Below are positions 7,461-53,642 of a DNA stretch of 53,642 bases, one piece after another. The DNA lies in NCBI GenBank assembly GCA_902826615.1, contig CADEFN010000004.1:530819-584460 (forward strand), in the 5' to 3' direction. The DNA is from an uncultured Gemmatimonadota bacterium (GTDB taxonomy: Bacteria; Gemmatimonadota; Gemmatimonadetes; Gemmatimonadales; Gemmatimonadaceae). A program made the position numbers and the translations under genes. Within the stretch, counting starts at the first letter, position 1; the number at the start of each line of letters is the position of its first letter. The notes beneath the pieces were generated by a model. The model did not search any database. It was not told where the DNA came from and worked only from the letters and a program-made list of their open reading frames with translations.

Positions 7461-8219
7461 ATGTCCCGGCCCTCCCGATCGCTCAAGACCGAATACGAGC
7501 TCTACGTCGACCAGGAGATCGAGAACTATAAGGACTCGATCCCGCGCTCGGCGATTCTTCGTATCGGTGATGAGGCGGTCACGAGCCTGCGGGCCAGCGA
7601 GCAGATGATGTTCGGCGAGATGATGCTCTGTACAGAAGTGGACCGCATCATCCGCAAACGCCTCCGGCTCCCCTCCTACGCCACCTGGCGCCGCCGGCGA
7701 CTCAAGCTCATCGAGGCCTACAAGCGCCCCGAACACTGGGGGATGACCTTCGACGCCCCGCTCGTGCAGGCCCTCCCGTCCGAAGCCGAGGCGCATGTGC
7801 TCGTCCTGGGCCCGCAGGAGGAAGGGACAGCACTCTACCTCGTGGCAAATGGCTGTCAGGTCACCGCGGTCGAAGAAGACCCGGACGGCGTGGAGCGTGT
7901 GATGACAGCGGCTGGCCAGGTCGGCCTTTCCTCCCGGGTCAATGGAATGGTCTCTCCGGTCGACGCATGGTTCCCGGCATCGCCGCTTCACGCCGTCGTG
8001 TCTTCGCCCGCTGCCTTTGAGAAACTCTCCCCGGAAGAACGGGGACGCGTCATCGAGATCCTCAAGAGCGCCACGCTCGATGGCGGGGTGCATCTCGTAC
8101 GCACCCTCGTCGCCGGACAATCGAACCTGAGTCAGGATGAATTGCGCCAGCGCTACTCCGGCTGGGACGTCAACATCCTCGACCAGCACACCTTCCTGGC
8201 GCGCAAAGCCTTCGCCTAG
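7461..8219 (+). CDS. Class I SAM-methyltransferase-like protein, possibly non-catalytic
   Basis: The 252-residue protein has an N-terminal helical region (about 1-95), rich in charged residues and Met. A Rossmann-like half follows: AEAHVLVLGPQEEGTALYLV resembles the SAM loop with GxExGT instead of GxGxG, and TAVEEDPDGVERV gives the acidic residue after strand 2. DAVVSSPAAFEKL would sit at the motif IV position without a typical catalytic motif. It may be a degenerate methyltransferase or a binding protein. A GAGG stretch (7452-7455) lies just ahead of the ATG. It is followed by a small palindrome and a hairpin that may end the transcript. Confidence 0.6.
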   Translation: MSRPSRSLKTEYELYVDQEIENYKDSIPRSAILRIGDEAVTSLRASEQMMFGEMMLCTEVDRIIRKRLRLPSYATWRRRRLKLIEAYKRPEHWGMTFDAPLVQALPSEAEAHVLVLGPQEEGTALYLVANGCQVTAVEEDPDGVERVMTAAGQVGLSSRVNGMVSPVDAWFPASPLHAVVSSPAAFEKLSPEERGRVIEILKSATLDGGVHLVRTLVAGQSNLSQDELRQRYSGWDVNILDQHTFLARKAFA

Positions 8220-41700: not shown

Positions 41701-42418
41701 GTATGAGTACGCACATCTTTTGGCAGGCCGCGGCGATCTAGCAACAGCCGAGCAGCTCCATCTACGTGCGATGCAGGCGCACCCGAAGGACTCTTACACA
41801 CGCGCCAACTACGGACTCTTCCTCCTGCACAGCCGCAACGACGTTCAGGAAGCTGCGCTTCACCTAACCGCAGCAGCAACGCTTGAGGGGACGACAAGCA
41901 AGCTGCATCGATGCATTGGAGCATTCCTGGAAGAACACGCCAAAGACTCTGTCGGAGCGGAGGCTGCCTTCAGGCGCGCGCTCCAGGTCGATGCCAAGGA
42001 CGCACGGTCACTACTCTCGTTGGGCATTTTCCTCCTCCGCCAAGGCAGTGATGAAGGATTCCGCCTACTCCGCGCGGCGCAGAGTACACCACACCCGCGC
42101 ATACGTTCTGCTTCACTAGGGGCCGCCTTTGCCTTGCTCATCTACTCGCGCGCCGCCGACAGACCCGCATGGATGTCGGTCCTGAAGCAGAGACTGCTTG
42201 CAGGGGACAAGTGCCCCGATCTGGATTTCGGACCAGATCTCCGTAGGCTGACGGACGCGGGAGACCCCTATGCAGCCAGGCTCGCCCAGTTGTTCTCGGT
42301 CGTAGCTGGAAGGGAGGCGCTTACGTCTCTCGAGGATTGGCCTGACTGGTCGCAAACCAAGCCTGCTGCTCAGGCGCGGACGCATATTGCAAATGCCTTG
42401 GGACAAGCAAGCGAGTGA
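38705..42418 (+). CDS. SIR2-domain NADase fused to a long TPR array; candidate anti-phage effector
   Basis: The protein has 1237 residues from ATG 38705; ATG 38570 is an alternative. The SIR2-like domain covers about 22-240: NAD loop FLGAGCSVSSGIPSA (28-42), TTNFDD with catalytic Asn137, KLHGD with catalytic His179, then GYGGED (217-222). About 22 repeats of 34-37 residues run from ~336 to ~1128, each with a Tyr/Ala-rich helix (EYAHLLA, ANYAGFLL) and an (A)E-x-LF-x-RAL helix, which is TPR-like. A helical tail ends the protein. No P-loop ATPase lies between. SIR2 proteins of defence systems deplete NAD+ when phage is sensed; the TPR array would be the sensor or oligomeriser. Codon use is AT-richer than all neighbours, suggesting transfer. 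Confidence 0.85.
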   Translation: MSIRRIEVPEFVRRLHADANDGKHHALFLGAGCSVSSGIPSAGTLVSDRWLGRLRDLRAPERTNLEAWAREEVPGYDSRNPARSYGVVLDQLFLTSQDRQREIEGLCAGAEPSFGYAALAQLIAANAEVFNVVLTTNFDDLLSDALYLFTTSRPLVIPHESLATFIRSTQTRPLVVKLHGDSRLAPKNLASETELLERELHRQTTMVLRDRGLVFMGYGGEDQGVLELLDALPEEALPQGVYWVNPKAPEGRMAKWLTKRGAAWVKEGWFDEVMLFMWLKFNLKHPSRGRVDRIFHNYIKTFTRLYEGIDEKALRRGGLTELQGAASAVRAALPDSWRYLALAMRQEKQAPEKAQAIYIEGLRHFPNNVPLLGSYAMFLSGVLKDDESAERHFRMGLDSGEENEFHLANYAGFLLERRGDKEGAERLFRRAVEKAPDNPEIVASLAAFQHWIRGDASSAELGLKRALALNPNSPLALSEYAHLLAQQGKDPDLTEMMFKRALEVPGGRDDIVQGYAQFLATQRKDGARAIAVYRQAVKQRPTDLRLRLDMADFLADKLGDFATADDEYRSIAGAGADPTLLAKLGHRLSTRDGRAAVECYLGVLRKDPCNSTAWSELVHLLPSRGEARPEIAALLNKALSACRSNPEVLFAAALVNQHVLTDFPVAESLYLQAIEAQPHRVDLLTCFAVFCYEALRQVDRADAIFQEARALPTLPALTLVAYARFCLRAKGDVTRAAQHFGEAVTMEPRNGRMLADYATFLATDLKDRAGAEAMYNRAVDLAPGHPGVLVAYASFLATERDNIPLAEQLLLRALALSPQLGAALKCYATLLWHGKRDIARAKQMLIKALRAAPDDVDLLLDAANFYAEEDEDLDSSERYLKSAVLHDKHSSRAHVAYARFRYYVRGDASSASHLMAEARTLHPDDATLASLHASLLLHGLDDRDAAEAIFAESLKRGTQDASLLCEYAEFMAKIREDDATAEALFRSALERDPSHAASLYEYAHLLAGRGDLATAEQLHLRAMQAHPKDSYTRANYGLFLLHSRNDVQEAALHLTAAATLEGTTSKLHRCIGAFLEEHAKDSVGAEAAFRRALQVDAKDARSLLSLGIFLLRQGSDEGFRLLRAAQSTPHPRIRSASLGAAFALLIYSRAADRPAWMSVLKQRLLAGDKCPDLDFGPDLRRLTDAGDPYAARLAQLFSVVAGREALTSLEDWPDWSQTKPAAQARTHIANALGQASE

Positions 42419-52107: not shown

Positions 52108-52535
52108 GTGGCCAGCCTGGCTTAGCGCCTACGCGAGGCGAGCTGTCTCGTGTGGTCGTTGGGTGCTGGGGCAGGCAACGGGTCGGGCAACGGGGCGCGC
52201 CCCAAACTCTTCCTGGTATGTGGGTCTCGAGGGGAAAGTCGAGCCAGATATCACAGCGTAGTTCGGAGACGGTTCGGCGCAGGATAGGCTGCAGCGCCGG
52301 TGGGCATCGGCGCGTCGTTTGGCGGTGTCATCCGCTGGATATCGCGCGCCGCTCGCAAGGATATCTGGGCCTGGCTGGATCTTGGCGCTAGGTCAACCTG
52401 TGGAATGCCAAGGGTTTGCCGCGCGAGGCCGCCGGCTCGTGTCGTGGGAAAGGAAGCGAGGCTGGCGCTCTATATCGGCGTGGTCCACCGTGTTATGCGG
52501 CGTGGGGTGGGGGGGGCTGGTGCGCTATATTCTGG

Positions 52536-52576
52536 TTGTGCAATCCTGCGCTACGCAGCACAATAGAGAGTTAGGC
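52536..52576 (+). other. Possible degenerate attC or other integron core site
   Basis: TTGTGC/GCACAA and TGCG/CGCA pair into a bulged hairpin (52536-52563), followed after six bases by GTTAGGC (52570-52576), the consensus right core of integron sites. No matching left core (RYYYAAC) was found, so it is at best a partial site. It would define the left edge of a cassette ending at the clear attC at 53390. Confidence 0.35.
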
Positions 52577-52717
52577 AACTCTCCGAGCTGCAGAGCCGAG
52601 CGAAAGTGACCAAGCGCTCGTGTGCGAGGGCGAGGGATGGTGACCGCGCATGGACCAGCGCCCGTCGCGTCGCTCGGCCTGGGCGCCGGAGTCCCTCGCC
52701 CGAGCGGCGAGGCTCCC

Positions 52718-52746
52718 TTGCGGCCCTATACTGCTTTCGATATAGT
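52718..52746 (+). promoter_or_regulatory. Promoter for higBA, leaderless
   Basis: TTGCGG (52718) and TATAGT (52741) are 17 bases apart. Transcription would begin within a few bases of the GTG at 52752, so the message is nearly leaderless. CTATA (52726-52730) and TATAG (52741-52745) form an inverted repeat over the -10, a plausible operator for the antitoxin. Confidence 0.5.
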
Positions 52747-52751
52747 CCAGC

Positions 52752-53093
52752 GTGGACGAGAAACCGATCGCCTGGGTGGGGAGTGCCCACGCCGACTTGC
52801 GTGCCCTCCCACCCGAGGTGCGACGCGAGCTCGGTTACGACCTGCGCTTGGTGCAGCGGGGGCAGGAGGCGCGGGACGCCAAGCCGATGGTGACGGTGGG
52901 CGCTGGCGTGTTTGAGATTCGAGTGCGCGTCGGTGGAGCGTTCCGCCTGTTCTACGTGGCTAAGTTTGTGGAGGCGGTGTACGTACTGCACGTGTTTCAG
53001 AAGAAGTCCCAGAAGACCGCGCGGCTCGATGTCGAGTTGGGACGCGCGCGGTATCAGACTGTGGTGCGCAATCGCGCCCGAGGAGGCCCGTAA
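52752..53093 (+). CDS. higB: HigB-like toxin (Gp49 family)
   Basis: The protein has 113 residues from GTG 52752. The RelE-like toxin of the phage Gp49/HigB family is marked by FEIRVRV, FRLFYVAKF and the closing LHVFQKKSQKT. Family members cut mRNA on the ribosome and stop growth. The stop is two bases before the antitoxin ATG, in the toxin-first order typical of higBA. It is carried on what looks like an integron cassette, a frequent location for toxin-antitoxin pairs. Confidence 0.9.
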   Translation: MDEKPIAWVGSAHADLRALPPEVRRELGYDLRLVQRGQEARDAKPMVTVGAGVFEIRVRVGGAFRLFYVAKFVEAVYVLHVFQKKSQKTARLDVELGRARYQTVVRNRARGGP

Positions 53094-53095
53094 TC

Positions 53096-53395
53096 ATGAC
53101 AACGCGTATTCGCCGGGGCTCGGGGAACGTGTTCCTGGACGCCGGGTTTCCGCCCGAGGAAGCCGCGCACCTGCTCATCCGCACCGACTTGATGATTGAG
53201 CTCAACCGGGTCCTCGAGGCGCGCGCCCTCACCCAGACGCGGGCGGCGAAGCTGCTGGGGGTGTCGCAGCCGCGGGTCAGCGCACTGCGCCGGGGGAAGG
53301 TGGGGCAGTTCAGCATTGATGCGCTGGTCGAGATGCTCGCCCGCCTCGGGGTGACGGTCACGCTACAGACGAAGAAGCGCAAACGAGTTGCCTAA
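53096..53395 (+). CDS. higA: HigA-like XRE antitoxin
   Basis: The protein has 99 residues; AGGAGG lies 9 bases ahead of ATG 53096. The helix-turn-helix is LTQTRAAKLLGVSQPRVSALRRGKV (about 43-67), followed by SIDALVEMLARLGVTVTL. It binds and neutralises HigB and represses its own operon. Its stop codon TAA (53393-53395) lies within the left core of the attC site, as often seen in gene cassettes. Confidence 0.92.
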   Translation: MTTRIRRGSGNVFLDAGFPPEEAAHLLIRTDLMIELNRVLEARALTQTRAAKLLGVSQPRVSALRRGKVGQFSIDALVEMLARLGVTVTLQTKKRKRVA

Positions 53396-53483
53396 CACAC
53401 TGTTGCAACAGACAGGCGCCTTGAGGAATGCTCGCTCCGCTCGCTCTATTGGAGCGCCTGCAGTTGAACAGTAGACGTTAGGC
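53390..53483 (+). other. Integron attC recombination site
   Basis: This 94-base element has cores GCCTAAC (53390-53396, RYYYAAC) and GTTAGGC (53477-53483, GTTRRRY) as inverted ends. Inside, CTGTTGCAAC on the left pairs with the complement of GTTGAACAG on the right with one unpaired G, as in the extrahelical bases of attC. The next block, CAGGCGC/GCGCCTG, pairs exactly. The centre is a variable ~34-base loop. The higA stop lies in the left core. These features together make an attC site by structure. No integrase gene is in the window. Confidence 0.88.
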
Positions 53484-53510
53484 AGAGTTCCTCACAGAAC
53501 GGACACGGGC

Positions 53511-53642
53511 ATGGTCTCCGACTGCACCAACCTTTGGGGTGGTGAACGCGCGCGCCACGTCTGTCGGTGGATGACCGCGGTGGCCTCCTTGGCGCGGCGC
53601 GGTGGTCGGCAGACGGCCGTTGGGGCCACCGCGGCTCCGTTG
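53511..53642 (+). CDS. Possible next cassette frame, cut by the window end
   Basis: ATG at 53511, 28 bases past attC, is open for 44 codons to the window edge. The ribosome site is weak and no domain is seen. Its place just behind attC fits a further cassette gene. Confidence 0.3.
   Translation, partial: MVSDCTNLWGGERARHVCRWMTAVASLARRGGRQTAVGATAAPL

Follow-up and report, generated by a model that had tools for sequence, protein, structure and literature searches.

In the textbook integron, a single attI site adjoins the integrase gene, intI, and cassette arrays found elsewhere in a genome are put down to debris or to off-target insertion. Clusters of attC sites lacking an integrase (CALINs) are well described, with off-target insertion, loss of intI, or rearrangement as their proposed origins (PMC8618304), and in Xanthomonas CALIN loci occupy conserved positions (PMC12444791). 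For the sedentary chromosomal integron of Treponema, in which intI is transcribed toward attI, one attI per integron is stated (PMC3607928). The genomes of the Gemmatimonadaceae described here share with Treponema (PMC3607928) the IntI family, attI, attC arrays, and an intI on the cassette strand, whereas they carry several attI sites each, most of them without intI. They also contain attC arrays without a neighboring intI, as at the conserved loci of Xanthomonas (PMC12444791), but, unlike in CALINs, each array considered here is headed by a recognizable copy of attI and a conserved leader. An attI sequence outside of its usual place, usable by the integrase, is known from the Delta-attI-type cassettes (PMC12901181), although those reside in the arrays of mobile integrons, whereas the sites described below are fixed heads of chromosomal arrays. 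A search of the open-licence literature, whose silence is weak evidence, turned up no description of a single integrase with several conserved attI platforms, or of Gemmatimonas integrons of such a kind.

The window (the whole stretch of DNA that was analysed, 53,642 nucleotides) ends with the start of one cassette array, headed by an attI site without an integrase gene of its own. The features of this region are:

52184..52569, + strand: leader of about 390 bp upstream of the orphan attI, homologous to the leaders of other orphan attI sites
52553..52576, + strand: orphan attI core ACGCAGCACAATAGAGAGTTAGGC, without a mismatch to the intI-linked attI of contig C2 over the 20 specified positions
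52571..53477, + strand: 907-bp gene cassette at the head of the array, starting with TTAGGC and ending with its own attC, with complementary R'' GCCTAAC
52752..53093, + strand: higB-like toxin gene, 113 aa, RelE/ParE superfamily, Gp49-like (PF05973, 84 bits)
53096..53395, + strand: higA-like antitoxin gene, 99 aa, HTH_37/XRE (PF13744, 80 bits)
53390..53483, + strand: 94-nt attC belonging to the higBA cassette (75.9 bits and E 2.3e-15 with the covariance model; bottom-strand fold z = -3.3)
53478..53642, + strand: beginning of the second cassette, a gene-less one of about 560 bp that is repeated in this genome; contig C4 ends within it

The original prediction, a higBA cassette of about 0.9 kb with a complete attC, is borne out by the Pfam matches and by the covariance model. 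Both Pfam scores are far over their cut-offs, and the Gp49/RelE-fold toxin gene lies immediately 5' of the HTH antitoxin gene, as in HigBA type II toxin–antitoxin systems. The cassette extends from T52571 to G53477, its length of 907 bp following from the GTTAGGC at 52570–52576, and its start, TTAGGC, is complementary to its own R'' GCCTAA. The stop codon of higA (TAA, 53393–53395) falls, as had been anticipated, within the left core, R'' GCCTAAC. The attC possesses paired R''/R' cores (7/7 pairs), L''/L' boxes, and unpaired bases in L'', including the predicted unpaired G, which is on the top strand. The covariance model that recovers this site was trained on 42 attC sites, taken from the present genome and from its relatives, the window site being left out; its next-best match in the 53.6-kb window has an E of 3.3, and the window contains one attC before the contig end. 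A second, weak attC candidate (41862–42025) was unseen by the model and was dropped, and Rfam at gathering scores matched nothing in the window. In textbook attC sites the unpaired L'' base on the bottom strand is a G; in all 42 sites used here it is a G on the top strand and a C on the bottom strand (alignment A1, column 16). A change of this base from G to C is only mildly harmful (PMC2727003). As the first cassette, higBA may discourage the loss of its own array.

The cassette that follows is present in at least 12 copies in the genome, those on C35, C16, C40, C34, C36, C43, C10, C2, and C4-left being 80–95% identical. Its copies (e.g., L011:36-595, L013, L015, L016, L017) have no common ORF and an unusually long attC of about 190 nt, and numerous contig ends fall within them. 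The window stops at the end of contig C4 because the contig breaks inside this repeated cassette. In being a non-coding cassette of a large array, it is comparable to the gene-less, promoter-active cassettes described elsewhere (PMC11014356).

The GTTAGGC core ahead of the genes was correctly positioned at 52570 by the original prediction; it is to be read as an attI-type site. The bases preceding it, ACGCAGCACAATNNNNAGTTAGGC, are identical to those ahead of the first cassette beside the integrase gene on C2, and the crossover, which conforms to GTTRRRY, would lie between 52570 and 52571 (G^TT). Judged by this sequence, the core represents a further copy of this genome's attI rather than an attC site. 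A search of the whole genome (a draft of 98 contigs) with the 20-base core pattern gave four exact matches, one of them intI-linked, and four or five credible matches with 1–3 mismatches; the reversed pattern gave 0 matches, and about 3e-6 would be expected by chance. In addition to two intI-linked attI sites, on C2 and C16, the genome has six or seven attI-like sites without nearby intI, found with this pattern:

C4-left: orphan attI-like site
C4-right: orphan attI-like site, that of the window
C4:233700 (C4-mid): orphan attI-like site
C9:133387: orphan attI-like site
C1:738018 (C1-mid): orphan attI-like site
C14:52245: orphan attI-like site
C3:432047: weak orphan attI-like site, with 3 mismatches to the pattern

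A profile search agrees with the prediction that the window contains no integrase gene, and the arrangement of a complete integron, with intI beside attI, is thus absent from it. An intact gene was located on another contig:

C2:944383-945321: intact integron integrase gene intI, 324 aa (TIGR02249, 402 bits; cut-off 265)

Its product has the conserved R..HxxR..H..Y catalytic motifs, and its nearest matches, from many phyla, are only 50–60% identical to it; intI was found in 81 of the 148 genomes of the family that were searched. The order on C2 is intI, attI, and cassettes, all on one strand, with intI reading toward attI, a layout also seen in relatives in which attC sites were found downstream. 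The choice originally offered, between a CALIN and an integron with intI outside of the window, held insofar as intI does exist elsewhere; it proved too simple, since the array is headed by a copy of attI and is one of several attI-headed arrays without intI. Further attC sites are also present, the genome-wide total by the covariance model being about 62 at E <= 0.01. Quite probably, these loci constitute a distributed integron, in which the integrase of the single intact intI would act in trans on several fixed chromosomal attI platforms. IntI from C2 would then insert cassettes at the orphan sites by attI x attC recombination.

The only other intI of this genome, on C16, is 5'-truncated (aa 86–324 are left), with a break that coincides with an attC-like core. 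The order there (L012:10605-11756) is attC, partial intI, attI, and cassettes, as if the integrase had joined an attI-bearing piece to an array. Since attI and cassettes have been kept, this locus demonstrates that decay of the kind required by a different reading does occur, namely that an intI formerly accompanied every orphan attI and has since been lost, with the cassettes left over as in a classic CALIN. The relative G004, which has two attI-like sites and 24 attC matches (L117, L253, L254, L255), and in which no integron integrase was detected at E 1e-60, also accords with such a loss. We nevertheless regard relic arrays as an unlikely origin, since the stretches around the other orphan sites examined contain no remnant of intI; two further observations that speak against them are given below, with the loci of the relatives.

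Most orphan attI sites are preceded by homologous leaders, which are 58–87% identical and extend over about 390 bp in the best pairs and about 108 bp at C1. The leader of the window is 69.5% identical over 394 bp to that of C4-left, and about 60% identical over 290–370 bp to those of C9, C4-mid, and C14. The intI-linked attI does not have a leader of this type, and the orphan leaders of this genome share only about 24 bp with it, a point against the distributed reading. Off-target insertion at secondary sites other than attI (attG), which would produce an ordinary CALIN with no special platform, is a known mechanism for scattered cassettes (PMC8618304, PMC12444791). However, attG sites are expected to share little besides the GTT triplet and its surroundings, which already disfavors this reading, and the match to the intI-linked attI at 20 specified bases, the long common leader, and the fixed orthologous loci make it highly improbable here.

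The orphan leader occurs twice on C9 (L115:5152-5411 and 7692-7915), around two cassettes, with half an attC fused to the second, degraded copy. The sites of C1-mid and C9 are degraded, or their junction matches are imperfect, a further point against a distributed integron. The duplication on C9, together with the breaking of contigs in arrays, would fit a single large integron locus split by the assembly, with the attI copies being internal duplications in its array. Against this stand C4:233700, C9:133387, and C1:738018, all of them inside long contigs and away from intI, as well as the single-contig genome G048, whose orphan sites lie about 350 kb from intI; we give a single split locus hardly any credence. 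In a draft genome with arrays that break contigs, the true distance of some "orphan" loci from intI could be smaller than the contigs suggest, a doubt that G048 answers for its own genus, g23, only.

Among the arrays behind the orphan sites, that of C4:233700 is assembled with six attC (at 234538, 236459, 237245, 238134, 241039, and 244230); two attC precede the contig end at C14, and at C4-left the contig stops ahead of any attC. Cassette starts agree with the attC ends of the same cassettes, including ends that depart from the consensus, as in GTTGGGC/GCCCAAC (C4-mid) and GTTATGC/GCATAAC (C14). The first cassette at C14 carries on the minus strand a higB-like gene (L113:16565-16909), with DNA similar to that of the higBA cassette of the window; in this reverse orientation it would be unreadable from an array promoter. 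Other cassettes behind orphan sites encode a RelA/SpoT-domain protein (L116:10714-11532) and an AAA_21/AAA_15 ATPase (L112:6708-8465). A comparison with G029, of the same genus, as an empty site was abandoned: the gene upstream of the platform precedes other genes there, with neither attI nor attC, but the next gene matches on another contig of the present genome, so that the order is rearranged and the site is not a clean empty one.

A comparable organization is found in a second genus, g23, presumably Gemmatimonas, represented as the other relatives by one genome per species. Six of its 30 genomes have two or three copies of a genus-specific attI, and in G048, with one intI, the intI-linked attI lies at 4315192 and the orphan sites at 4664927 and 4679584, each with attC behind it. 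G031, which belongs to a further genus and has several intI genes, gave no match to the attI pattern tested at an orphan position, which also counts against a distributed integron. Orphan locus B is common to four genomes of g23 and locus C to three; in all pairs, 1.1–1.3 kb of upstream sequence can be aligned up to the leader, and 0 bp downstream. The pattern at the intI-linked locus A is much the same. Upstream of the orthologous orphan loci are ordinary genes (e.g., an ORF resembling cysteine synthase, an identification made by eye), yet the first cassettes are wholly different in each species, which also argues against relic arrays.

In 10 of 13 orphans, the attI hexamer at the junction is the reverse complement of the R'' of the first cassette, against 2.70 expected (p 3e-5; two were read with a model offset of 1 nt corrected by eye, and uncorrected the count is 8/13, p 3e-4). 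The matches include rare ends, such as GTTGGGC/GCCCAAC, GTTATGG/CCATAAC, GTTCGGC/GCCGAAC, GTTAGGG/CCCTAAC, and GTTAGCG/CGCTAAC. At the three sites that do not match, 2–4 kb separate attI from the first attC detected, so that a cassette may have been overlooked there.

The leaders of attI in g23 (about 208 bp) group largely by genome and not by locus, and clades by locus are rejected by the AU test for locus B (p 4e-13) and locus A (p 1e-6), although the alignment is short and contains one long-branched row, for which reason we give weight to the pattern and not to the exact p-values. At locus C, which is known from close relatives only, the leaders stay together. Recombination or gene conversion would keep the attI copies within a genome alike, and copies kept alike would, we propose, stay matched to the resident integrase. 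Leaders that follow the genome at loci A and B are not what relic arrays would lead one to expect. The attI copies, their common leader, the arrays, the complementarity at junctions, the turnover of cassettes at orthologous orphan loci, and the clustering of leaders largely by genome, all read directly from the DNA, are accounted for less well by relic arrays or by off-target insertion than by an integrase acting in trans, and it is on these grounds that such action is inferred for the enzyme of C2.

For the Gemmatimonadaceae as a family, we lean toward a picture in which a single integrase would serve several attI platforms, each at a fixed locus that is inherited vertically; the copies of attI would change in concert, both among themselves and with the resident integrase, and cassettes would be collected in parallel, in each place within its own neighborhood. 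If this is true, some CALINs would be working capture platforms driven in trans, which could help explain the conserved CALIN loci in other genera, and the platforms would provide a natural test of the coevolution of attI and integrase. That attI sites are scattered over this chromosome, at a great distance from its one intact intI, suggests that a single integrase is able to supply many separate, gene-collecting arrays.
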